From Tabrizicola flagellatus (GTDB lineage Bacteria; Pseudomonadota; Alphaproteobacteria; Rhodobacterales; Rhodobacteraceae): a stretch of DNA of 64,000 nt. The stretch covers positions 1 through 64,000 of the forward strand of contig NZ_VMDU01000001.1 of NCBI RefSeq assembly GCF_008271465.1. Direction: 5' to 3'. Shown here in pieces: positions 35,460-47,250 of this stretch. The position numbers and the translations under genes are program-made. Positions within the stretch are counted from its first letter, which is position 1. Each line of letters starts with the position of its first letter. The notes beneath the pieces were generated by a model, which was given only the letters and a program-made list of their open reading frames with translations, made no database searches and was not told the DNA's origin.

Positions 35460-37136
35460 TCACGCCGGTGCGAGGGCGTTGTGGGAATTCTGCACGGCAA
35501 AGCGCAGGAAGGCCCGCAGCGAGGTCAGCGCCCGCTTGCCGGGGCCCCTGAGCGGGCTTTTCAGCGGATGCCAATGCCCGCCTTGGTGGTTCAGGATCGA
35601 CTGCGGCATGTGGCGCATCAGGCCGATGATCGTGTCGGCGACGATCTCGCTGGCGACCGGACCCAGCCGCTCGCCCTGGCCATGGTGCCGCGCCTCGGCC
35701 AGCACATAAAGCCAGGCCGGCGTCTCGGCCAGCATGCCCAGCTCCTCGGCCAGTTCGCGCAAGCCCTTCGCGCCCGGCGGCCGGCTGTCGGGCAGGGCGT
35801 CGCGCAGCTGGTCCTCGTCCAGCGCCTCCAGCCCGCAGGCCCCGGCCAGCACCTGACCGAAGGCGATCCGGCGCTGGAAGCCGCGCATCAGGTTGCGGAA
35901 GAGGATCGACCCATGCACGGCGATCTCGGAGGTGCCCATCGCGCTCAACATCCCGGGCGCGAAGGTCAGGTCGATCCGCTCGGCCCCGGTGGCGCCCTTC
36001 GGCGTCCGGGTCATCCGGTTCCAGTCGATCACCCAGTGGTCGGGCAGTTGCAGCGTCTCGGCCAGCCCGGGCTGGCCCATGTTGCGATGGGTGGTGAAGT
36101 CGAACAGGTCCTGCAACTTGGCCCCCCGGCGGTCGATCGGCCCGCCGCGGCCGAAGTTGCGGTTGAAGTCATAGCTGGCCCCGACCATGGAATGGCCGAA
36201 GCGGAAGGCCGCGGTGGTGAATTCCAGCGGCACCAGCCGCGGGCCGGGGAGCTTCTGCGCCCGGTTGGCGAAGGGCGTCGCCAGAGTGGCAGGCGACAGG
36301 AGGTTCGCCAGGAAGTCGTGCAGGATCAGCCAGTGGTAGTGCAGCGTGACCAGCTGCCGGGCGCGGGCGAAACAGGTCGCCGCATCCGGGGCCTCGCCTT
36401 CCAGCGCGGCGACGGCCTTGTTGTGGACCAGCATCAGCGCCAGGTGCAGCTGGCTGATGATCAGGTTCTCGTCGTTCCGCCGGTCGGCGATCAGCGGCTG
36501 CCCGTCCCGGCGCAGGATGTCGGGCGCGTCCGTGTCGTGATGGATGCGCGCGGGCTTCAGGCCCTTTTCCTCGAAGAATTCCGGCGGCTCGCGCCTGGTC
36601 CTGCCCAGCCGGAACCGCTTGCCGTCCGGGGCATAAAGCGCCCGGATCCCCGGGTCGGCGCTGTCGGGCCCGTCGCCGTAGAGGCTGTCCAGCGCCAGGG
36701 GCTCGGCCTGTTCGTTGACGAAATTCGCCAGGATCACCCTGGGCGAGGCCCGGTGGACCCGGTCCAGCCCGGGCGGCAGCCCGGCGTCGATCACGCCGGT
36801 GCCCTCGGGCGGTGCGGGCAGCGTGACCACATCGCCCACGGGGGCGGAGATGTCGTGGTTCACGAACTGTCCGAAATAGGTATAGACCGGCGCCAGCCGC
36901 ATCGGCAGGACCTGCGGCGTGGTCAGGGCGGTGCGGCTGTCCTTCTCGAAGGCCCTTAGCCGCCGGAAGGTCTCGGCCGGAGTGGTGCCGCGAAAGCAGC
37001 CGACATCGGCCCGCCGGGCCAGATCCGGGAACAGATAGCAGTAGCCCGACTGCGAGGCCCCTGCCGCCTCGGCCCTCGGCGCTGCGGGGGCGGGCGTTGC
37101 GCCGAACAGGCTGTGCGGGGTCGAGATCGGCGGCAT
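35460..37136 (-). CDS. Animal-type haem peroxidase
   Basis: A 558-residue member of the peroxidase-cyclooxygenase (animal haem peroxidase) superfamily. The distal motif is YFGQFVNHDIS (Gln90, His94), and the proximal histidine is in AFRFGHSMVG. In mammalian myeloperoxidase the residue before the distal histidine is an aspartate that bonds the haem; here it is asparagine (Asn93), so that covalent link should be missing. There is no signal peptide and no RTX repeat, unlike many bacterial members, which points to a cytoplasmic enzyme. It starts 13 bp after the YcaO gene on the same strand, so a tailoring role on a peptide is possible but unproven. Confidence 0.82.
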   Translation of the reverse strand: MPPISTPHSLFGATPAPAAPRAEAAGASQSGYCYLFPDLARRADVGCFRGTTPAETFRRLRAFEKDSRTALTTPQVLPMRLAPVYTYFGQFVNHDISAPVGDVVTLPAPPEGTGVIDAGLPPGLDRVHRASPRVILANFVNEQAEPLALDSLYGDGPDSADPGIRALYAPDGKRFRLGRTRREPPEFFEEKGLKPARIHHDTDAPDILRRDGQPLIADRRNDENLIISQLHLALMLVHNKAVAALEGEAPDAATCFARARQLVTLHYHWLILHDFLANLLSPATLATPFANRAQKLPGPRLVPLEFTTAAFRFGHSMVGASYDFNRNFGRGGPIDRRGAKLQDLFDFTTHRNMGQPGLAETLQLPDHWVIDWNRMTRTPKGATGAERIDLTFAPGMLSAMGTSEIAVHGSILFRNLMRGFQRRIAFGQVLAGACGLEALDEDQLRDALPDSRPPGAKGLRELAEELGMLAETPAWLYVLAEARHHGQGERLGPVASEIVADTIIGLMRHMPQSILNHQGGHWHPLKSPLRGPGKRALTSLRAFLRFAVQNSHNALAPA

Positions 37137-37149
37137 GGCGGCCTCGCGG

Positions 37150-38208
37150 TCAGAAGGGTTCGGGCAGGGTCGGGGGCGGCAGGTCGGGACAGAGCCTGGC
37201 AAAGCGTGGGCACTGCGTCCGGCCCCGCATCGCGCAAAGCCCGGGCACCAGGACCCGCACCGCGGGCAGCGGGTCGCCCGGCAGGGTCATCTCGACCCCC
37301 AGCGCCCGGTGGCCCAGCCCGCCCAGCCGTTCCAGCAGCCCGGCCATCTCCAGCGGCGGAGTGGCCCGTTCCGGACCGGGGCGGAACTGCGGCTGGTCGG
37401 TCAGCGAGGCGGCGGCCAGCCAGGCCGCCGCCTCCGGATCGCCCGCCTCGCGCGCATGGTCGAGGCTGACCTCGGTCTGCACCATCTCGGTCACCGCGGC
37501 GAGTGCCGCATCCGCCAGCACCGGCCGCGCGGCCGAGCCCATGGCGACCCTCCGCCCGTCCGGATCGGCGGCCACCGCCACCACCGCCGGCAGGCCGATG
37601 TCGCTCGTCACCTCGATCAGCCGGGTCTCGCGGGCGCGCTGGTGCAGCCACCAGAAGAGCCTCGGCTGGTGGGCATCGATGATCTCGGTCGCCACCGCCC
37701 CGCCCGGCCGCCGCCCGTGCCACCACAGCGCCACCGCGTCGCGTTCCACACATTCCCAGAGGCCCCGCGCAATGGCGCTGTCGCGGTCGGGCCCCACCGC
37801 GCAGCCGGTGGAACCGGCATCCTCGCGCAGGGGCTCGCCCAGGACCGCCGCGCAGTCCAGATAGACCTCCTGCGCCGGCACCTCGACCGTCTCGCCGCTG
37901 ACCAGATCGGTCGCAGCGACCATGGCGATCCCGTCGCGCCGCGGCAGGGTGCGCAGGTCCGGGAGGTGGTGCTGCGCCAGGCTTGCCCGCAGTTCCAGCG
38001 CCTCGGCCCCCGCCGCCAGCATCGCCTGCTGCGGCGTCAGCCCCCGTCCCGCCGGCAGACGCGGCTTCAACCCCGTCACCCCCTCTTCCGTCGGCAGGGC
38101 GACGGCCAGGAACAGCGGTGCCTCGGGTGCGTCGAGGGCCATGAGGTGGAAATCCTCGCCCAGGGCGCGCGCCATCTTGGCGATCATCTCGGCCGGATTT
38201 TGCTTCAT
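37150..38208 (-). CDS. YcaO-domain protein, TOMM cyclodehydratase type
   Basis: A 352-residue YcaO protein. The YcaO core has STGCAVG (133-139), the ATP-site E-x-x-E-R in WECVERDA (Glu152, Glu155, Arg156), and TEMVQTE (240-246), where the usual Arg after the Gln is Glu. The C-terminus PGLC...LPPPTLPEPF (343-352) has the proline-rich tail typical of YcaO enzymes that make azolines in TOMM peptides; E. coli YcaO-type proteins lack it in this form. Such enzymes activate a peptide amide with ATP and close Cys/Ser/Thr into rings. No E1-like or ThiF partner gene is present nearby. ATG at 38208; TTG at 38220 is possible. Confidence 0.8.
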   Translation of the reverse strand: MKQNPAEMIAKMARALGEDFHLMALDAPEAPLFLAVALPTEEGVTGLKPRLPAGRGLTPQQAMLAAGAEALELRASLAQHHLPDLRTLPRRDGIAMVAATDLVSGETVEVPAQEVYLDCAAVLGEPLREDAGSTGCAVGPDRDSAIARGLWECVERDAVALWWHGRRPGGAVATEIIDAHQPRLFWWLHQRARETRLIEVTSDIGLPAVVAVAADPDGRRVAMGSAARPVLADAALAAVTEMVQTEVSLDHAREAGDPEAAAWLAAASLTDQPQFRPGPERATPPLEMAGLLERLGGLGHRALGVEMTLPGDPLPAVRVLVPGLCAMRGRTQCPRFARLCPDLPPPTLPEPF

Positions 38209-38352
38209 GCGCGTATTCAAGGCAGGATGACGGACAGGATCAAGGACGGAATCGGACGCTGCCGGCGCATTTCACGCTGGCATCACGAACCGGCCGGATA
38301 GTGATCCGACAGCAGGGGCGGAAACAGCCAGGACACAGGGAGAGACAGGGGA

Positions 38353-38733
38353 ATGGTGGGATTCTTCAACCTGAAAAGCAATTCGATCGCCGATCAGGAA
38401 GAGACCGGCGAGGCAATCCTGCGGGTTGCGAAAAGCGTGTTCAAGGACACGCCGAACTCGGAATGGAAGAAGTTCAACGACGACACGCGCGGCTGGCTGC
38501 ATGCCAACGGCTACCGATATGACGGGCCAGGCGCCGGACCCAACGGCGAGATCCCCGACAGCGTCCAGATCGTGCCGGTCTACGACACGCCGAACCGGAT
38601 GCATGTGCGCATACCCTCTGCGGACGTGCTGAAGACCGTGCCCGACGTGGCGGACGAACCGTCCTACGGCAATGGCAAGTCCACCCGGTTCAAGGTGCTG
38701 CTGGCCCGCTATTTCATGCGGCATTGCCGCTAG
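38353..38733 (+). CDS. NHLP-like small protein, candidate RiPP precursor
   Basis: A 126-residue protein divergent from YcaO. Residues 71-88 (VQIVPVYDTPNRMHVRIP) match the pattern of nitrile-hydratase-leader peptides, where a strand of the kind V-x-V-x-x-D-T-P is followed by an L/V-P segment, and the helical part before it (about 19-55) fits the rest of the leader. The tail after residue 90 would be the core: it has serines, threonines and one cysteine (Cys125, in RHCR). The tail is poor in Cys, unlike classic TOMM cores. The match was judged by eye. If wrong, it is a hypothetical soluble protein. Confidence 0.6.
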   Translation: MVGFFNLKSNSIADQEETGEAILRVAKSVFKDTPNSEWKKFNDDTRGWLHANGYRYDGPGAGPNGEIPDSVQIVPVYDTPNRMHVRIPSADVLKTVPDVADEPSYGNGKSTRFKVLLARYFMRHCR

Positions 38734-38748
38734 GCGGCGGGATCCGGC

Positions 38749-40767
38749 TCAGGCGGTCTCCACGGCCATGGCCCGGGCCATCCGGATGCCCTTCTGCAGG
38801 GCAAGCCGGCCCTCGGGCCAGTTGATCGGCAGGGTGTCCAGCACCCAGGCCTCCAGCTCTTCCTCGGCCGGGGCAGAGCCGCCCTCCCACATCTGCGTCG
38901 CGATCCGGCGGAAGGTGCCGTAGGCGCGCGCCGCCTCCTGCGCCTGCCCGAGATGCGCGTAGGAGGCCACCGCCCAGACCCCGAGGTCCGGAAAGCCGTC
39001 GGGGCATTTCTCGACCGTTGCGATGGTCGCCTCATGGTCGCCCGCCATGAAATGGATGCCGGCCAGATAGGCGATGTAATATTCCGGATAGATCGGGTTC
39101 AGCCGCAGGGCCTGCTCTGCCAGGTCCTTCGCCAGATCGACATGGCCGAGGAAGCCCAGCCCGCTCGCCGCCGCGATCAGCGTCTCGGCATCGTGCGGGT
39201 TCATGTCCACCGCCAGCCGGAAATGCGAATTGGCCCGTTCCGGCGACCGCGCGATGGCCCAGTTCCAGGCCATGCTGATGTGGCAGCGCGGATCGTAGGG
39301 GTCGAGCGCGATGGCCTCGCGCGCGTGGCGGAAGGCGGCTGCGCAATCGGCCTTGCGGTTGGGATAGCCCGGTCGGACCATGCAGCGCGTGCTCAGGATC
39401 TGCGCCAGGCTCGCATGGGCGCTGGCCAGACCAGGATCCAGTTCGATCGCTCTCAGGAACAGCGCCTCGGCCTCGGCGTCGGCCTCGGCCGACCACAGCC
39501 GCGACAGCTGGTGCCCCTTCAGCCAAAGGTCATAGGCCACCGGATTGCCCGGCGTGGACCGCGCATGGCGCAAGAGCGTGATGTGGTTCACCTGGCTGGC
39601 CAGGTTCGCCGCCACCGCACCCGCGACGGACGAACTGACCTCCTGCAACTCGTGCTCGGCCACCGGGTAGAGCTGGGACCAGACCTCGCTGCCGTCGCGG
39701 CAGTCGATCAGGGTGACGAACAGCTTGCCGCTGCCCGTGCGCCAGTCCAGCACGCAGTCCACCGCGAAATCGGCGTCGATCACCTGGCCCACGGCGGTGA
39801 AGTCAACGGCGGTGGTCGAGTCGAAGCCGCTCGACGGCCAGGGGATGACGATCCAGCAGCGGAACCGCGACAGGCAGGACTTTGCCAGGAAGGCAAAGCC
39901 CTCGCCCAGGTAGTCCTTGCTGTTGTCGGTGTAGCGGGTCAGCGGCGGGCGGATGGTGATGCGCGGCGGGCCGCTGCGCGTCAGGGGCGCGGCGGGGGCG
40001 GCGGGTGCAGTGGCAGGGCGCTGAAGCGAGACCTCGCCGCTCTTGATCGCGACGAGAAGCGCATTCGAGGCCTCGCTCGGTTCGCTGTCCAGTTCCTCGG
40101 CCAGCGCCTGTTCCAGCAGCCCGTATTGCCGCAAGGCCGCCGACTGGTCGCCGCGCTGGGCGTGAAAGCGCATGAGGAACTGGTGCGCCAACTCGTGGCT
40201 GGGTTCGATCCGCACCAGTTCCTCGGCGATGCGGGTATCGGTGAAGGCATTGGCGGCGATCAGCTTTTCCAGCTGGTCGGTCAGGGCCGAGGTCAGGACC
40301 GACCGCAGCTGCGACCGCTCGATCTGCAACCAGGCCTCGAAGACCGGCGCACTGGGCTGGGCCGGGCCGAACAGCTCGCCCTGCCACAGCGCCGCCGCCG
40401 AGAGGAGCGCATTCTGGTCATGCACCGCCGTCGCGATCAGCTCGCGGAACCGGCGCACGTCCAGGTCGAAGGCCTGAGCCTTCAGCCCGACGGAAAAGCG
40501 GTCGGCTTCGACCACATCCTCGTTCTCCGGGCCCAGCACTTCCTTCAGCTCGCGCAGCGCCTGCCGCAGGCTGGAACGCGCCAGCGATTCGGGCGCGGGG
40601 TCCCAGAGCAGCGAGGCAAGCTGTTCGCGGTTCATCCTTTGGCCGGGCGACAGAAGGAGAAGGCCAAGAAGCAGCCGCGTCTTCCGCGTCCGGAACGCCA
40701 GTTCCTCTCCGGTCGCGACACGCGCGACCCGGCAGGCACCGAGGAGATCAACCTGGAAGCGAAACAT
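38749..40767 (-). CDS. BTAD/TPR transcriptional regulator (SARP-like)
   Basis: A 672-residue regulator. The N-terminus (about 1-95) is an OmpR-type winged helix (RTRKTRLLLGLLLLSPGQRM, LASLLWDPAPESLARSSLRQ). A BTAD domain follows (about 100-245), then a TolB-like segment (about 265-390) and TPR repeats to the end (WLKGHQLSRLWSAEADAEAE, AIELDPGLASAHASLAQIL). Such proteins often control secondary metabolism. It converges with the small NHLP-like gene (15 bp apart). The ATG at 40767 is preferred; an upstream TTG at 40824 has no ribosome site. Confidence 0.8.
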   Translation of the reverse strand: MFRFQVDLLGACRVARVATGEELAFRTRKTRLLLGLLLLSPGQRMNREQLASLLWDPAPESLARSSLRQALRELKEVLGPENEDVVEADRFSVGLKAQAFDLDVRRFRELIATAVHDQNALLSAAALWQGELFGPAQPSAPVFEAWLQIERSQLRSVLTSALTDQLEKLIAANAFTDTRIAEELVRIEPSHELAHQFLMRFHAQRGDQSAALRQYGLLEQALAEELDSEPSEASNALLVAIKSGEVSLQRPATAPAAPAAPLTRSGPPRITIRPPLTRYTDNSKDYLGEGFAFLAKSCLSRFRCWIVIPWPSSGFDSTTAVDFTAVGQVIDADFAVDCVLDWRTGSGKLFVTLIDCRDGSEVWSQLYPVAEHELQEVSSSVAGAVAANLASQVNHITLLRHARSTPGNPVAYDLWLKGHQLSRLWSAEADAEAEALFLRAIELDPGLASAHASLAQILSTRCMVRPGYPNRKADCAAAFRHAREAIALDPYDPRCHISMAWNWAIARSPERANSHFRLAVDMNPHDAETLIAAASGLGFLGHVDLAKDLAEQALRLNPIYPEYYIAYLAGIHFMAGDHEATIATVEKCPDGFPDLGVWAVASYAHLGQAQEAARAYGTFRRIATQMWEGGSAPAEEELEAWVLDTLPINWPEGRLALQKGIRMARAMAVETA

Positions 40768-41010
40768 GCGATACCGTTCGGGATTACAGAGGTTAACGAT
40801 GCACAGAGACACGCGGCCTTTCAACAGACGACGATCGGGAAATCCACCCTAATCCGGCGTTCCGGCGCCAGGGTTGCCCGGCCCGCTACCGATTTGGCGC
40901 TGGTGTCACGCGAAAATCACGCTGATGCCCTAGACCAGATCCTGTCCTTCGCCGCGATCCGGGGAAGGGGAAGCGCATTTTCAGACAGATCCATTTGAAC
41001 GGAGATCGGG

Positions 41011-41316
41011 ATGAAAACCCTCATCGCATCGCTGCTTGCCCTGTTCGCGGCAGGCGCCACACCCCTTCTGGCCGAGACCGCCGCCCGGATGCTGGAAAAC
41101 TGCCCCCTGACCGGCGCCACCGGCTCGGCCTCGGCCGAATGCCAGGCCCTCAGGGCCGATTACACCGACAAGGTCCAGACCTGCCTCGCGCTGCGCCGGG
41201 TGGCCGCCGAAGAGCGGACCGGCCGGTCCTCTGCCGGCAACGGCCATTCCGCCCGCGCCAGCTACATGGCCTGCGCGTCCGAAGTCCGGTTGACGCTCGG
41301 ACTGGCCGCGAAATAG
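41011..41316 (+). CDS. Small exported cysteine-containing protein
   Basis: A 101-residue protein with a signal peptide (about 1-21, ending LLAETA) and four cysteines in the mature part (ENCPLT, AECQ, QTCLA, MACAS), spaced for two disulfides. GGAG lies 6 bases before the ATG. It is not part of any clear operon. Function unknown. Confidence 0.65.
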   Translation: MKTLIASLLALFAAGATPLLAETAARMLENCPLTGATGSASAECQALRADYTDKVQTCLALRRVAAEERTGRSSAGNGHSARASYMACASEVRLTLGLAAK

Positions 41317-41333: not shown

Positions 41334-42167
41334 TCAGCCGGTCAGGAAAGGCGCGGCCGTCATTGTCGCGGGCACCGGCACCCCCATCCGCGTCAGGATC
41401 GACGGGGCCAGCGCCAGCTGGTCCAGCACCTGGTCCTCGGGCGGCAGCGGGCTTGCGCCGAAATAGTAGAAGGCGAAGTCGCGCTGCTCCTCGCCCGTCC
41501 CGCCATGATGCCCGCGCGCGTCCTGGCCGTGGTCGGCGGTGACGATCACCTCGTATCCCGCCTGCCGCCAGCGGTGGATGAAGGGGGCCAGCACGGCATC
41601 GAGATGGCCGCAGGCGTGGTCCATCTCGACGCAATCGTGGAAGAAGCGGTGCCCCATGCTGTCCAGCGTGCAGGTGTGCAGGATGCCGTAGTCGATGCCC
41701 TTGACCTCGCACAGCCGCGTCAGCGTGCCGAAGAGGTCGTAGTCCGAGGGCGTCATCTGGTTCGCGTGCCCATAGCCGTGCATGGTGTGGAACCGGCCAT
41801 GAGTGATGGGCCCTTCGGGTTCGTCGTATTCGATGTCGCGCACCACGTCGAAGGGCGCGCGGTTGAAGAACTCCGACCAGTAGCTGTGCGTGACCGCCCC
41901 GGTCTTCAGGCCCGCCTTCGTCAACTCGCCGAAGACATCGGGAAACTCCAGCCGCCGGATGTCGGCATTGTCCCAGATCCGGTGCACCTGCGGCGGCAGG
42001 CCGGTGTGGATCGAGGCATAGCACGAGGCCGAGGTCGAGGGCAGCACCGAGCGCATCCGCCGCACCCGGGCCTCGCCCTGTTCGACCCAGCCTTCCAGGT
42101 TGCCGAACAGCCGCCGCCAGTTGCGGTAAGGCACCCCGTCCAGGATGATGAGCAGCAACTTGGTCAA
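41334..42167 (-). CDS. Alkaline phosphatase-superfamily phosphodiesterase
   Basis: A 277-residue protein of the type I phosphodiesterase/nucleotide pyrophosphatase group. The first metal aspartate is in LLIILDGVP, the nucleophile is in PSTSASCYASIHTG, metal residues follow in DSMGHRF, and VTADHGQDARGHHGG carries the D-H pair. No signal peptide, so it is likely cytoplasmic. The substrate (phosphodiester or sulfate ester) is not evident. It lies downstream of the peptide ABC genes and could be read from the same transcript, with an 81-bp gap that holds a repeat. Confidence 0.8.
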   Translation of the reverse strand: MTKLLLIILDGVPYRNWRRLFGNLEGWVEQGEARVRRMRSVLPSTSASCYASIHTGLPPQVHRIWDNADIRRLEFPDVFGELTKAGLKTGAVTHSYWSEFFNRAPFDVVRDIEYDEPEGPITHGRFHTMHGYGHANQMTPSDYDLFGTLTRLCEVKGIDYGILHTCTLDSMGHRFFHDCVEMDHACGHLDAVLAPFIHRWRQAGYEVIVTADHGQDARGHHGGTGEEQRDFAFYYFGASPLPPEDQVLDQLALAPSILTRMGVPVPATMTAAPFLTG

Positions 42168-42174
42168 GAAAAGC

Positions 42175-42202
42175 CTCCTCGTGCGCCTTCGGCTTCTCGT
42201 CG
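42175..42202. repeat. 28-bp repeat, left copy
   Basis: The 28 bases, starting CTCCTCGTGCGCC, are identical to 49408-49435. Both copies are followed by a GAGGAG...GACGAGC segment that can pair with the start to form an imperfect hairpin. The copies flank the ABC importer and CocE hydrolase genes. Confidence 0.75.
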
Positions 42203-42248
42203 GGAGGCCCCCAGCGAGGAGGGACGCAGTCCAACGACGAGCGGCGGT

Positions 42249-43883
42249 TCAGTTCCCTGCGCTCTCCATCTTGCGGTGCGCGATCACCTGCTCCAGCCAG
42301 CCCAGTTCCATCTCGGGCACCGAGGACAGGAGAAGATCGGTGTAATCGTCGAACGGCGGCGTCAGCACGTCGGACTTCTGGCCGTAGCGCACGACCGCGC
42401 CCTTGAACATCACCGCGATCTTGTCGGAAATCGCCTTCACCGTCGCCAGGTCATGGGTGATGAACAGGTAGGCGACGTGCTCCTGTGCCTGCAGCGCCAG
42501 TAGCAGCTTCAGGATCCCGTCCGCCACCAGCGGGTCCAGCGCGCTCGTCACCTCGTCGCAGATGATGAGCTTCGGCTTCGCCGCCAGCGCCCGCGCGATG
42601 CAGACCCGCTGCTTCTGCCCCCCCGACAGTTCCGCCGGATAGCGGTCGGCAAAGCCCTTGCCCATTTCGATCTGGTCCAGAAGCTCTTGCACCCGCCTGT
42701 CGCGCTCCGCCCCCTTCAGGCCGAAGTAGAACTCCAGCGGCCGGCCGATGATCGTGCCCACCGTCTGCCGCGGGTTCATCGCGGTGTCGGCCATCTGGTA
42801 GATCATCTGGATCTCGCGCAGGTCGTCCTTCGTCCGCCCGGCCAGATCCGCTGACAGCTCGCGCCCGGCAAAGGTGATCCGGCCCTGGGACGGCGGCAAC
42901 AGCCCGGTGATCGCCCGCGCCAGCGTCGATTTCCCCGACCCCGACTCGCCCACCACCGCCAGCGTCTGACCCGCCGGCAGATCGATCGACACGTTCTTCA
43001 GCACGTCGAAATTCGTGCCCCGGTAACGCGCCGTGACGTTCTGCACCTGCAGGACCGGCGGGGCAGGGGGCTTCTCGGCATGGTCGAGGCCCCGGACCGA
43101 GACCAGCGCCTTCGTGTAGTCCTGCACCGGCCGGTGGATGATCTGCCCGGTCTCGCCAAGTTCGACCATCCGGCCATGGCGCAGCACCATGATCTCGTCG
43201 GCGACCTGCGCCACGACGGCAAGGTCATGCGTGATGTAAAGCGCCGCCACACCGGTATCGCGGATCGCCTCCTTGATCGCGGCCAGCACGTCGATCTGGG
43301 TGGTCACGTCCAGCGCGGTCGTCGGCTCGTCGAAGATCACCAGGTCCGGCTTCGGGCACAGCGCCATCGCCGTCATGCAGCGCTGCAACTGCCCGCCCGA
43401 GACCTGGTGCGGATAGCGGTTGCCGATCGTGTCCGGGTTCGGCAGGCCGAGCTTGCGGAACAGCCCCCGCGCCCGGGCCTCGGCCTCGGCCTTGCTGCAC
43501 AACCCGTGGCTCAGGCAGGTCTCGATCACCTGCTCCATGATCTGCTTGGCCGGGTTGAAGCTGGCGGCGGCCGACTGCGACACATAGGTCACCTCGCGCC
43601 CGCGCAGGCGCCGCAGGCTGCGCGCATCGGCCAGCCGGATCTCGCGCCCGTTCAGGTGGATCGTGCCCCCCGTCAGCCGGACGCCGCCCCGCCCGTAGGC
43701 CATGGCCGACAGGCCGATGGTGGACTTGCCCGCCCCGGATTCGCCGATCAGCCCCAGCACGCGCCCCCTCTCCAGCGTCAGGTCCACGCCATGCACCAGC
43801 GTCACGGTCTTCGGCGGCTCTCCCGGAGGATAGGAGGTCGCTTCGATCACCAGGCCCTTGATCTGCAACAGGGGATCAGCCAC
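42249..43883 (-). CDS. Peptide ABC transporter ATPase, two domains fused (DppD-DppF type)
   Basis: A 544-residue protein with two ABC ATPase domains in tandem, which power the importer. The first has GESGAGKSTI and VSGGQLQR; the second has GESGSGKSTL, LSGGQKQR and LIICDEVTSALD. Fused oligopeptide-type ATPases such as this replace separate DppD and DppF. It overlaps the dppC-like gene by 8 bases. Confidence 0.92.
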   Translation of the reverse strand: MADPLLQIKGLVIEATSYPPGEPPKTVTLVHGVDLTLERGRVLGLIGESGAGKSTIGLSAMAYGRGGVRLTGGTIHLNGREIRLADARSLRRLRGREVTYVSQSAAASFNPAKQIMEQVIETCLSHGLCSKAEAEARARGLFRKLGLPNPDTIGNRYPHQVSGGQLQRCMTAMALCPKPDLVIFDEPTTALDVTTQIDVLAAIKEAIRDTGVAALYITHDLAVVAQVADEIMVLRHGRMVELGETGQIIHRPVQDYTKALVSVRGLDHAEKPPAPPVLQVQNVTARYRGTNFDVLKNVSIDLPAGQTLAVVGESGSGKSTLARAITGLLPPSQGRITFAGRELSADLAGRTKDDLREIQMIYQMADTAMNPRQTVGTIIGRPLEFYFGLKGAERDRRVQELLDQIEMGKGFADRYPAELSGGQKQRVCIARALAAKPKLIICDEVTSALDPLVADGILKLLLALQAQEHVAYLFITHDLATVKAISDKIAVMFKGAVVRYGQKSDVLTPPFDDYTDLLLSSVPEMELGWLEQVIAHRKMESAGN

Positions 43884-44691
43884 CGCGCCCTCCCTTGAGG
43901 CTCGAGGTCCGGGTCAGGATCCAGTCGGCGACCAGGTTCACGCTGATCGCCAGCGCCGCAATGGCGGCCGCGGGCAACAGCGCCGCCGACTTGCCGTAGA
44001 TCAGGCCATCCTTGTTCTCCTTCACCATGCCGCCCCAGTCCGCCAGCGGCGGCTGGATGCCGAGGCCGAGGAACGAGAGCGTCGAGATGAACAGGACCGC
44101 GAAGATGAAGCGCAGGCCGAACTCGGCCACCAGCGGAGACAGGGCATTGGGCAGGATCTCGCGGAATATGATCCAGCCGCCCTTCTCGCCCCGCAGCCGT
44201 GCGGCCTCGACATAGTCCATCACCGCGATGTCCACCGCGACGGCGCGGCTCAGCCGGAAGACGCGGGTCGAATCGAGGATGCCCATGACCAGGATCAGCA
44301 CGGTCAGGTTCAGGGGCAGGACCGACAGCATGACCAGTGCCACGATCAGCGAGGGGATGGCCATCATCAGATCGACCAGCCGCGACAGAAGCTGGTCGAT
44401 CCAGCCGCCCTTGACCGCGGCGAGAAAGCCGAAGAAGGCCCCCAGCGCAAAGGCCAGAAGCGATGAGGCCAGCGCCACGAAGATCGTGACCTGCGCGCCA
44501 TAGATCAGCCGGCTCAGGATATCGCGGCCGATGGTGTCGGTGCCCAGCCAGTGCGCGGCCGAGAAGCCTTCCCACTGGCCGCCGGAACTGTCGTCCAGCG
44601 GATAGGGCGCGATCCACTGCGCGAAGATCGCGATGAAGAGGAAGGTTCCGGTCAGGACCAGACCGATCAGGGCGGAAAGCGGCATCCTCAT
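43876..44691 (-). CDS. Peptide ABC transporter permease (DppC type)
   Basis: A 271-residue permease with a cytoplasmic N-terminus, a TDTIGRDILSR entry and about six membrane segments. The coupling loop is near DYVEAARLRGEKGGWIIFRE. It is overlapped by the ATPase and overlaps dppB by 4 bases (ATGA), so the set is one operon. Confidence 0.91.
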   Translation of the reverse strand: MRMPLSALIGLVLTGTFLFIAIFAQWIAPYPLDDSSGGQWEGFSAAHWLGTDTIGRDILSRLIYGAQVTIFVALASSLLAFALGAFFGFLAAVKGGWIDQLLSRLVDLMMAIPSLIVALVMLSVLPLNLTVLILVMGILDSTRVFRLSRAVAVDIAVMDYVEAARLRGEKGGWIIFREILPNALSPLVAEFGLRFIFAVLFISTLSFLGLGIQPPLADWGGMVKENKDGLIYGKSAALLPAAAIAALAISVNLVADWILTRTSSLKGGRGG

Positions 44692-45644
44692 TTCGGGTGC
44701 CTCAGGCGCGGGTTGGCAAGGATGCCGATGATGTCGGCCAGCATGTTCAGGAAGATGTAGACGGCGGCGAAGATCAGCCCCACGGCCTGCACCACCGGCA
44801 GGTCGCGCTTGGTGACGTGATCGACGAGGTATTGGCCAAGCGCGTTGTAGCCGAAGACGACCTCGACCACGACGACCCCGACGACGAGGTAGGCGAGGTT
44901 CAGCATGACCACCGACACGACCGGCGCGATGGCGTTCGGGAAGGCGTGCTTCCAGATGATGGTCATCGGCGACAGGCCCTTGAGTTCGGCGGTCTCGATA
45001 TAGGCCGACTGCATCACGTTCAGGATCGCCGCCCGGGTCATCCGCATCATGTGGGCCAGGACGACCAGCACCAGCACGATGACGGGGAGCGCGATCGCGT
45101 GCAGCTTGGCCCAGAAGCTCATGCCGGGAAAGACCATGGCGACCGGCTGGAAGACGGGGAAAAGCTGGGTCAGGAGGAAGATGACGAAATAGGCCGCGAC
45201 GAATTCGGGCAGGCTGATCGTGGTCAGCGTGACGGCCGAGATCAGCTTGTCCGGCCAGCGCCCGGCATAGCGCGCGGCGATCAGGCCCAGAAGGATCGCC
45301 AGCGGCACGGCGATCACGGCGGCGCATCCGGCCAGGAACAGCGTGTTGCCCAGCCGCTGCCCGATCGCCTGGGCGATGTCGACGCCGTTGGTCAGCGACT
45401 TGCCCAGATCCCCGGTCAGGACCCCGCCGAGCCAGGTGAAATAGCGCGTGAGCGGCGGCTCGTTCAGCCCCAGCTTCTCGCGCAGGTTCTCCAGCGCCTG
45501 CGGGGTCGCCGACTGGCCGAGGATCGCCTGCGCGGTATCGCCCGGCAGCGCCTCTACGCCCAGGAAGATCACAGCCGACACCGCCAGCAGCAGGAGGAGG
45601 CCCAGCGCGATGCGCTGGACCACCAGTTTCAGGATCGGATGCAC
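44688..45644 (-). CDS. Peptide ABC transporter permease (DppB type)
   Basis: A 318-residue permease with six membrane segments and the family loop ...YIETAELKGLSPMTIIWKHA. The N-terminus MHPILKLVVQRIALGLLLLL is a membrane helix. It starts 10 bases after the binding-protein gene on the same strand. Confidence 0.92.
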   Translation of the reverse strand: MHPILKLVVQRIALGLLLLLAVSAVIFLGVEALPGDTAQAILGQSATPQALENLREKLGLNEPPLTRYFTWLGGVLTGDLGKSLTNGVDIAQAIGQRLGNTLFLAGCAAVIAVPLAILLGLIAARYAGRWPDKLISAVTLTTISLPEFVAAYFVIFLLTQLFPVFQPVAMVFPGMSFWAKLHAIALPVIVLVLVVLAHMMRMTRAAILNVMQSAYIETAELKGLSPMTIIWKHAFPNAIAPVVSVVMLNLAYLVVGVVVVEVVFGYNALGQYLVDHVTKRDLPVVQAVGLIFAAVYIFLNMLADIIGILANPRLRHPK

Positions 45645-45654
45645 GGACCGGGCC

Positions 45655-47250
45655 TCAGGCCAGCCAGCACTTGATCAGCGCCTTGCCGTTCATCAGTTCC
45701 CCGTTCGGGTCGGGCTGCCAGCCCGCCACTTCCTCGCGCCGCGCCTCGACCCAGTCGTTGAACATCGGCAGGATCAGGCCGCCCTCGTCGCGCAGGATAT
45801 GGGCCATTTCCGAATACATGGCCTTGCGCTTGTCCTGGTCCAGCTCGGCCCGCGCCGCCACCAGAAGTTCGTCGAACCTCGCGTTCTTGAACTTGGTGTC
45901 GTTCCATTCCGCGGTGGAGAGGTAGGCCGTCGAATACATCTGGTCCTGCACCGGACGACCGCCCCAGTAGCTGGCGCAGAAGGGCTGCACGTTCCAGACG
46001 TTCGACCAGTAGCCGTCGTCGGGTTCCAGCTGCACCTGCAGGGGAATGCCCGCCGCGTTGGCCGAGGCTGCGAACAGGTTCGCCGCATCCACCGCGCCGG
46101 GGAAGGCCCCGGGCGCCGTGCGCAGGATGATCGGGCTGCCGTCGTGGCCGGACTTCTTGTAATACTCCGCCGCCGCCGCCGCATCGTATTCGCGCTGCGG
46201 GATCGTGTCGTCGAACAGCGGATAGGCCGCGTTGATCGGGAAGTCGTTTCCGACCGACCCCAGCCCGCCGAGGATCTTCTCCACCTGCTCCTTGCGGTTG
46301 ATCGCCAGCTTCAGCGCCATCCGCAGATCGTTGTTGTCGAAGGGCGGCTTGTCGCAATGCATGATGAACACATAGTGCCCGCGGCCCGGTGCGTGCTCGA
46401 TCGTGATGCCAGGGGCCCCCTGCAGAAGAGCAACGATCTTCGGATCGACCCGGTTCATCATGTGGATCTGGCCCGACTGCAACGCCGCCGTCCGCGCGGT
46501 ATTGTCGTTGATGACGATGATCTCGACCTGATCGGCATGCGCGCCATTGGCCGCGTCCCAGTAGTTCGGATGCCGCTCGAACACATGGCGCACGCCGGGC
46601 TCGTTCACCGTCACCTTGTAGGCCCCGGCGCCGATCCCCGCGGCCGGGTTGTCGATGCCGCCGCCCGGCTGGATCACCAGGTGATAGTCCGCCATCAGAT
46701 AGGGCAGGTCGGCATTGCCCGAGGCCAGCTTCAGCGTCACCATGTCGCCTTCCGCCACCATCTCGGCGATGCCCTGCACGATGCCCAGCGCGCCCGACTG
46801 GCTCTTCTCGTCGGTGTGCCGCTTCAGCGTCGCCACCACGTCCTCGGCCGTCACCGTCTTGCCGTCATGGAACTCGACCCCCTGGCGGATCTTGAACTTC
46901 CACTCCGTCGCATCGGCGTTCGAGCTGATCTCCTCGGCGATCCGGTAGTCGATCGACCCGTCCGGTGCCACGTCCACCAGCATCTCGCCCCAGGTCATGT
47001 TGACCGCGAAGGGCACCTCGGACGCGGCCAGCGCCGGGTCGAGGCTGTTCGTCGATTCCCCGCCCTGCATGCCGGCGCGCAGCACGCCGCCCTTCTTGGC
47101 CTGGGCCTGCACCGCCTTGCCGAACAGCGCCGAGGCAAGCCCCGCCGAGACGCCCAGGGCCGTCGTCCGCCCGACGAACTCGCGCCGGCTCATTCGGCCC
47201 GCCTTTGCCTGCGCCACCATCCAGTCCAGCTGGTTCACCTTGTCGTTCAT
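45655..47250 (-). CDS. Peptide ABC transporter solute-binding protein
   Basis: A 531-residue family 5 binding protein that captures peptides or related solutes in the periplasm. The signal is Tat-like (RMSRREFVGRTTALGVSAGL, ending AVQAQA). KFKIRQGVEFHDGKTVTAEDV is typical of the family. It is the first gene of the operon. A 100-bp gap separates it from the CocE gene. Confidence 0.91.
   Translation of the reverse strand: MNDKVNQLDWMVAQAKAGRMSRREFVGRTTALGVSAGLASALFGKAVQAQAKKGGVLRAGMQGGESTNSLDPALAASEVPFAVNMTWGEMLVDVAPDGSIDYRIAEEISSNADATEWKFKIRQGVEFHDGKTVTAEDVVATLKRHTDEKSQSGALGIVQGIAEMVAEGDMVTLKLASGNADLPYLMADYHLVIQPGGGIDNPAAGIGAGAYKVTVNEPGVRHVFERHPNYWDAANGAHADQVEIIVINDNTARTAALQSGQIHMMNRVDPKIVALLQGAPGITIEHAPGRGHYVFIMHCDKPPFDNNDLRMALKLAINRKEQVEKILGGLGSVGNDFPINAAYPLFDDTIPQREYDAAAAAEYYKKSGHDGSPIILRTAPGAFPGAVDAANLFAASANAAGIPLQVQLEPDDGYWSNVWNVQPFCASYWGGRPVQDQMYSTAYLSTAEWNDTKFKNARFDELLVAARAELDQDKRKAMYSEMAHILRDEGGLILPMFNDWVEARREEVAGWQPDPNGELMNGKALIKCWLA

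Follow-up and report, generated by a model that had tools for sequence, protein, structure and literature searches.

YcaO enzymes are a major source of ribosomal peptide antibiotics and of rare modifications of proteins, and ring closure to a thiazoline is a common outcome when they act on cysteine. Here we describe a four-gene locus of Tabrizicola flagellatus, in which a YcaO gene is found with genes for an animal-type haem peroxidase, a small protein, and a regulator with a BTAD domain and tetratricopeptide repeats (TPRs). The locus lies in a stretch of 64,000 nucleotides (contig NZ_VMDU01000001.1, positions 1 to 64,000), hereafter the window; the loci and genomes compared with it carry L and G labels, respectively. 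We lean towards the reading that these genes form one co-regulated unit, in which a folded carrier protein has its penultimate cysteine modified by the YcaO enzyme, and the tail so modified is a substrate or a working partner of the peroxidase.

Among clusters for thiazole/oxazole-modified microcins (TOMMs), one type combines a YcaO enzyme with precursors that carry a nitrile-hydratase-like leader peptide (NHLP), as described in excerpts of Haft et al. (2010, PMC2887384). The locus resembles this type in its SagD-type YcaO, in a cysteine held in the C-terminus of a protein, and in that two related loci (L206 and L209) carry NHLP-like proteins. It differs in several respects: the window's small protein has neither an NHLP match nor a Gly-Gly, the YcaO is not fused to a cyclodehydratase C domain, a single cysteine is fixed, no flavin mononucleotide (FMN) dehydrogenase was noticed, and a haem peroxidase is found instead. 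As in TOMM clusters, a YcaO (D) protein is present with its presumed ATP and Mg residues kept, one expected Arg position being variable.

Other YcaO enzymes act on cellular proteins: a YcaO modification gives the thioglycine of McrA (PMC5589413) and a stand-alone YcaO makes the thioamide of Escherichia coli uL16 (excerpts of PMC13063428). Like these enzymes, the YcaO described here is proposed to act on a folded protein; unlike them, it would have a target of its own, a small protein whose gene lies next to that of the enzyme and whose C-terminal cysteine is fixed. The peroxidase shares with animal-type (peroxidase-cyclooxygenase) haem peroxidases, such as lactoperoxidase and myeloperoxidase, the distal Gln/His, the proximal His and mostly the catalytic Arg, but it is paired with a YcaO, and the residues that we take to form the haem ester bonds of myeloperoxidase are mostly not kept. 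Finally, the regulator is reminiscent of SARP/AfsR-type BTAD regulators in its BTAD domain and TPRs, its weak winged-helix match and the associated 11-bp direct repeat; unlike in that type, a guanylate-cyclase-like domain is found in the regulators of L063 and of the loci from a scan of one genome per species (the named loci), and the named loci lack the repeat.

YcaO-dependent modification, including that of a cellular protein, is known. A search of open-licence papers retrieved no pairing of YcaO with a heme peroxidase or animal haem peroxidase, in line with the initial annotation of the window, to which no described cluster of this composition was known; nor did it retrieve a fixed Cys-x tail associated with YcaO and peroxidase, the few papers on neighbouring subjects looking unrelated.

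A recurring four-gene unit

The four genes of the initial annotation were confirmed, with Pfam matches for the YcaO, peroxidase and regulator genes (Table 1). The peroxidase gene lies 13 bp downstream of the YcaO gene, both on the minus strand; the small gene points away from the YcaO gene, and the regulator gene runs towards it. The small gene is genuine: 13 of 32 genomes of the genus carry it, and non-synonymous change was below synonymous change (dN < dS) in 11 of 11 comparisons between the window and a relative, in an analysis that omitted the parts of the L068 peroxidase and the L074 regulator that contain stops.

Within the genus, the orthologous YcaO (at least 59% identity), the small protein and the orthologous peroxidase (at least 51%) occur in an identical set of 13 of the 32 genomes, and the regulator gene adjoins the other three in each carrier. 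Only 43 residues of the G166 peroxidase precede a contig end, and the G159 YcaO is in two pieces. In a fourteenth genome of the genus, G152, all four genes occur in another version (L063). In a draw of 149 genomes from the family, a YcaO match was found in 12 and a peroxidase match in 26; YcaO and peroxidase were neighbours in 6 of the 12 YcaO-positive genomes, the window's own included (G029, G078 and G119 were viewed within 1.5 kb only). In a draw from the class, 33 of 385 genomes had a YcaO match, and a peroxidase was present at 5 of the 15 places examined (of 35). A wider scan covered one genome for each of 84,980 species and gave at least 589 stretches, 522 of them confirmed; among the best 80 of these 522, 24 YcaO loci have the cluster peroxidase within 10-kb flanks, all of them within L079-L107, and a regulator match is present in each of the 24.

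In total we count 45 distinct loci, namely 13 from the genus, 24 named loci and 8 others (L047, L063, L064, L206, L209, L213, L214 and L216, the YcaO of L214 being cut by a contig end), with duplicates counted once (L079 = L044, L081 = L043, L094 = L045, L097 = L048). Open reading frames (ORFs) of the fetched loci were called by a custom script, and some start codons (L092, L099, L100 and others) were picked by eye. At least 11 different gene orders and orientations (L064 included) occur among the loci; the link between the genes is therefore more than an inherited neighbourhood. As the initial annotation had proposed, the four genes are one recurring unit, kept together through these rearrangements.

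Animal-type peroxidases stand without a neighbouring YcaO at 24 of the 28 peroxidase places in the family, which would fit genes that had come together accidentally, or through a common response to oxidative stress, and that make no joint product. This explanation is already disfavoured by the 45 loci, the many gene orders and the exact co-occurrence in the genus, and we regard it as very improbable indeed.

Clustering of the neighbouring proteins in 32 locus groups, with families named by eye, revealed no further gene common to many groups beyond parts of ABC transporters (ATPases in 13 groups, permeases in 7); a few other families recur in 3-5. We judge the ABC transporter genes to be generic, since such genes are common. 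Among these shared genes we noticed no protease, no peptide exporter and no FMN dehydrogenase, the latter without a dedicated model search; no TfuA neighbour of YcaO was noticed either, with no search aimed at TfuA.

Two cases deserve separate mention. A single Pararhizobium genome (CP051237.1) has two different versions of the unit, counted as two named loci (L082 and L088). In Rhizobium sp. RCAM05350 (L105, 4709-9493), the YcaO and small gene are open and the peroxidase and regulator matches are in pieces, which looks like decay of the unit; L105 was excluded from the residue counts.

The small protein and its cysteine tail

The end of the small protein is its conserved part. In 42 of the 45 loci it reads [R/K/H/Q/N]-Cys-X (in one of them, as the fused tail of the peroxidase), and the rest of the protein is divergent; the other three are L216, ending HCGP, L206, ending RSCASC, and L209, ending RCCAAC. 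In all 24 named loci a protein of 141-190 aa is encoded directly 3' of the peroxidase gene, with an invariant Cys one residue from its end, preceded by Arg in 23 and by Lys in one; aligned with the window's protein, these sequences have a mean column identity of 24%. One and the same filter found a Cys-tailed ORF in 24 of 24 named cluster loci (3 of them with a second such ORF by chance), in 1 of 24 peroxidase loci without a neighbouring YcaO and in 5 of 51 YcaO loci without a peroxidase, the peroxidase loci being about 2.6-4.5 kb long and the other loci up to 21 kb. The control leaves out L095, L103, L104, L106 and L107; L095 and L106 end at contig ends, and L103 and L104 have a Cys-tailed ORF.

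There is precedent for a stand-alone YcaO with a cellular protein as its target (excerpts of PMC13063428). By analogy to the action of E. coli YcaO on uL16, the enzyme could act on another protein, with the Cys tail merely binding the enzyme or the regulator. The fixed penultimate cysteine in an otherwise divergent protein, set against the two control sets, makes this quite improbable. Two Mesorhizobium loci (L103 and L104, 9495-14172) have a YcaO and a small protein ending KRCR, and no peroxidase was found in 21 kb; the cysteine thus appears tied to YcaO.

Some further observations concern loci of this kind. L103 also has a protein with cyclase, weak AAA and TPR matches. Thiocystis loci without a peroxidase have, some 0.5 kb downstream of the YcaO gene, an ORF of 118 aa with the end GMRCG (L123 1619-1975 and L133 5494-5850), which could be either chance or a relative of the tail motif.

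The initial annotation had likened the window's small protein to NHLP precursors, a resemblance that did not survive closer comparison. The 126-aa protein has no Pfam match over the cut-off and no NCBIfam match, and it has no Gly-Gly and a single Cys, at its penultimate residue, so that a Gly-Gly cleavage site before a Cys/Ser/Thr-rich core was not found. The NHLP profile TIGR03793 matched neither this protein nor four relatives, although a true NHLP ORF of L067 scores 7e-19 in the same library. In hhalign comparisons with NHLP, the P value was 0.16 for the window's genus and 0.3 for the main family. NHLP membership of the window's small protein was rejected on these profile and profile-profile tests, run with column-shuffled controls. 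The initial annotation had stated that its proposal would fall if the small gene both lacked a precursor-family match and was missing from other YcaO-peroxidase loci: the first was observed for the window's gene, but a small protein in the same role was found at 45 of 45 such loci examined (fused in one).

That the small proteins of all loci are one family is partly shown. By hhalign, the window's genus matches the main named set over the full length (P 2e-5 to 6e-5, probability 36-51). The L213/L214/L047 group was counted by position and tail, and the L206/L209 group by position beside YcaO and peroxidase. The L206/L209 proteins are NHLP-like by hhalign (P 1.2e-6, probability 82; P 0.017, 0.69 and 0.83 for three column-shuffled versions); by hmmscan, L209 matches NHLP weakly (E 0.12) and L206 does not. 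An NHLP profile built in-house gave weak scores in a set of 36 proteins (L092 E 0.0069, L209 0.018, window 0.41). Gene order at L206/L209 is that of the window except for the direction of the regulator. In some loci an NHLP-like precursor thus occupies the same slot, which supports the reading of the small protein as a substrate. Separately, L212 (1127-1411) has an NHLP-like ORF of 94 aa, ending ICGCAD, beside YcaO and a regulator match at the contig end; it scores E 1e-6 with the in-house NHLP profile and E 0.06 with NCBIfam.

The NHLP-like proteins of L206/L209 beside YcaO and peroxidase, the SagD-like YcaO and the weak in-house scores of L092 and L209 would also fit a conventional NHLP/TOMM-type ribosomally synthesized and post-translationally modified peptide (RiPP), with the small protein as the precursor and with genes at other places for cleaving off and exporting its core. 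We consider such a secreted product unlikely: the window's protein, its four scanned relatives and the main family lack an NHLP match, no protease or peptide exporter was seen among the shared genes, and the tail is conserved, whereas NHLP cores are variable (excerpts of PMC2887384).

What the rest of the protein may look like was addressed by modelling. An AlphaFold2 model of the relative from L080 (pLDDT 90.6, pTM 0.84) has a mixed alpha/beta domain and two C-terminal helices, the last of which leads into the Cys tail. Comparison of this model with PDB folds gave no useful match, which does not imply a new fold, and the small-protein profile matched only endonuclease and zinc-finger fragments among PDB sequences (E at least 0.0075), taken as chance. 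The model of the window's own protein was weak (pLDDT 63.4) and was not used; its folded domain is predicted from the L080 relative. Since the carrier looks folded, the tail and not a leader is conserved, and neither a protease nor a peptide exporter was noticed among the shared genes, we think it more likely that the modified protein remains intact than that a peptide is released; a cleaved, exported peptide finds little support.

One genome (G130, L047) has a fusion in which the small domain follows the peroxidase at its C-terminus and ends DYTIAQCK. Its tail matches the separate small protein of L213 (ending DYTIAQCG; 37% over 144 columns, E 1.6e-22) and that of L214 (E 7.5e-15) in a set of 36 proteins. 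As a query among 394 family genomes the fusion recovered only itself, which says little on remote fusions. On another reading, the small protein would belong to the peroxidase as a subunit, its YcaO-modified tail serving the peroxidase's own reaction as a built-in cofactor or ligand, and nothing would be released. Such an arrangement would agree with the natural fusion, with the position of the small gene directly 3' of the peroxidase gene in the 24 named loci, with a folded domain (L080 model) bearing a conserved tail, and with the lack of any protease or peptide exporter seen among the shared genes. It is hard to reconcile with the Mesorhizobium loci, which keep YcaO and the Cys-tailed protein with no peroxidase found, and with the window's genus and L206/L209, where small gene and peroxidase gene are not adjacent; we hold it to be doubtful. 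A protein-bound cofactor system, in which the YcaO-made heterocycle at the penultimate cysteine docks in and works with the partner haem peroxidase, would be a speculative reading that we put forward with little confidence; the 'RiPP' would then never be released and would be a moving part of an enzyme.

The regulator and its candidate operator

Direct repeats with 11-bp spacing are known as SARP operators. When the YcaO/small-gene intergenic regions of 12 genus loci are aligned, a TCACG repeat with this spacing is invariant, TCACG-N6-TCACG lying between the two genes in all 12 loci examined. The exact repeat has 5 copies in the 3.6-Mb genome, two of them at the unit (38272 and 40906). The pattern is what a BTAD/SARP-type regulator controlling the unit would look like, and the regulator, whose winged-helix match (Trans_reg_C) is weak (21.7 bits, cut-off 26.2), may bind the repeat. 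The other three exact copies are at G000:C1:271840, G000:C2:121349 and G000:C28:12762, the last just before a polyphosphate kinase-like gene, as judged by eye.

Similar repeats occur in some distant units. In 20 upstream stretches (6 kb) from seven of them, TCACG with its reverse complement ranks first of 1024 5-mers as an 11-bp direct repeat, with 8 hits at this spacing and no more than 1 at any of the other spacings tested. Three of the seven units, L064, L213 and L214, account for the hits, which lie upstream of peroxidase or YcaO; none occurs in the remaining four. The test was not blind, as these three were already positive earlier and the motif was derived from the window's genus. Regulators of L047, L064, L213, L214 and L216 have BTAD without a cyclase domain, like the window's. 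Among the 23 named-locus regulators scanned, a guanylate-cyclase-like domain is present in 23 and BTAD in 21, and no TCACG repeat was found in 85 upstream stretches of the named loci. The L063 regulator combines BTAD with a guanylate-cyclase-like domain; those of L206 (6659-8266) and L209 (713-2380) have cyclase and TPR matches and no BTAD.

The second copy at the unit is not conserved, a one-mismatch copy being present at the corresponding place in L068 only, among 11 genus relatives checked ahead of the regulator gene or of the gene at 41011. About 90 bp after it begins a possible fifth gene (41011), whose 4 genomes are all unit carriers, one of the matches being partial. Upstream of its relatives, exact repeats were found in G169, repeats with 1-2 mismatches in G159 and none close in G179.

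Other genes nearby are recorded here by eye. In the window, a phosphodiesterase-like gene and peptide-type ABC transporter genes adjoin the unit (41334-47250). At L073 12000-16200 (G169) and L074 3260-7100 (G159), the relative of the 41011 gene is divergent from genes for a LysE-like exporter, an APC-type permease and an EamA-like transporter, and TCACG repeats lie between these divergent genes on both strands, exact in G169 and with 1-2 mismatches in G159. This neighbourhood may possibly belong to a wider regulon.

Table 1. Features of the unit and its surroundings in the window.
Feature	Position	Strand	Evidence and remarks
Animal-type haem peroxidase, 558 aa	35460..37136	-	PF03098 E 1.4e-10
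YcaO enzyme, 352 aa, SagD-like	37150..38208	-	PF02624 E 6e-38; only a YcaO domain seen, without a fused second domain
Proposed operator TCACGCTGGCATCACG, 11-bp direct repeat	38272..38287	+	YcaO/small-gene intergenic region; kept in 12/12 genus loci examined
Small gene, 126 aa, proposed YcaO substrate	38353..38733	+	Ends ARYFMRHCR, penultimate Cys125
BTAD/TPR (SARP-like) regulator, 672 aa	38749..40767	-	PF03704 E 1.5e-14 and TPRs
Second repeat copy TCACGCGAAAATCACG, possible second operator	40906..40921	+	Between regulator and gene at 41011; 1 of just 5 exact genome copies
Possible fifth gene, 101 aa	41011..41316	+	Four Cys, signal-peptide-like start (by eye); 4/32 genus genomes

The enzymes and a proposed mechanism

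Both enzymes should be active, as predicted from their intact catalytic residues. In 32 aligned cluster members, YcaO residues E152, E155, R156 and E241 are kept in all 32 and E69/E72 in 31; we take these Glu and Arg residues to be the expected ATP and Mg holders. The window's YcaO matches TIGR03604 (E 3e-32) below the family cut-off. In a tree of 72 rows, the YcaOs of the window's genus stand on their own long branch and those of L206/L209 lie nearer TOMM-type YcaOs; with several long branches, the deep placing is unsure. The proline-rich YcaO end singled out by the initial annotation is indeed present (PPPTLPEPF), and [LMF]PEP[FY] is kept in 13 of 13 genus members, but it is not a general mark: distant peroxidase-linked YcaOs have other ends (for example NPVLLRL), and the PxPxP tail was rejected as a mark of the unit. 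In the peroxidase, the distal Gln/His and proximal Arg/His are present in 32 of 32 aligned cluster members and the catalytic Arg in 30. In a profile comparison the peroxidase matched a PDB chain named lactoperoxidase (E 8e-12), one cluster member (L044) falls below the Pfam cut-off, and no obvious signal peptide was seen in the start regions inspected by eye.

From the recurring unit, the fixed Cys tail, the intact catalytic residues and the repeat pattern, all read from sequence, we infer the steps that follow and any purpose of the product. At the expense of ATP, the YcaO enzyme would activate the backbone amide that precedes the small protein's penultimate cysteine; the most likely outcome is a thiazoline at [Arg/Lys/His/Gln/Asn]-Cys-X. 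The remainder of the small protein would be a folded carrier domain. The haem peroxidase may then oxidise the modified site with H2O2, possibly to a thiazole, replacing the FMN dehydrogenase. In the window's genus, the BTAD/TPR regulator would turn the unit on via the TCACG-N6-TCACG direct repeats.

Several observations weigh against this proposal. The link between the window's small protein and the main family is weak, and the L213/L214/L047 and L206/L209 groups match neither of the two (hhalign P 0.72-0.94). The Cys is third from the end in L216, and L206 and L209 have CxxC ends. At the position of the window's Ala237, where we presume an Arg to be expected, the YcaO varies (Ala in 12 and Arg in 5 of 32). 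No E1-like or RRE ring-forming partner was noticed among the shared neighbours, with no dedicated model search for either. The substrates of azoline formation are rich in Cys, Ser and Thr (excerpts of PMC2887384), as against the single fixed Cys here. The fusion of peroxidase and small domain occurs in one genome only, and the peroxidase could act elsewhere. Finally, the repeat with one mismatch shows no enrichment in the window, where it has 3 matches and 5.5 would be expected, so that only the exact form stands out.

All together, a compact unit of four genes couples a YcaO enzyme to a haem peroxidase and to a substrate that is probably folded and has a single fixed reactive residue. Since the proposal names the substrate, its site, the enzymes and the regulator, they can be tested together, and the candidate operator offers a handle on the rest of the regulon. 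The unit suggests a possible bridge between NHLP-type peptide clusters and protein modification.

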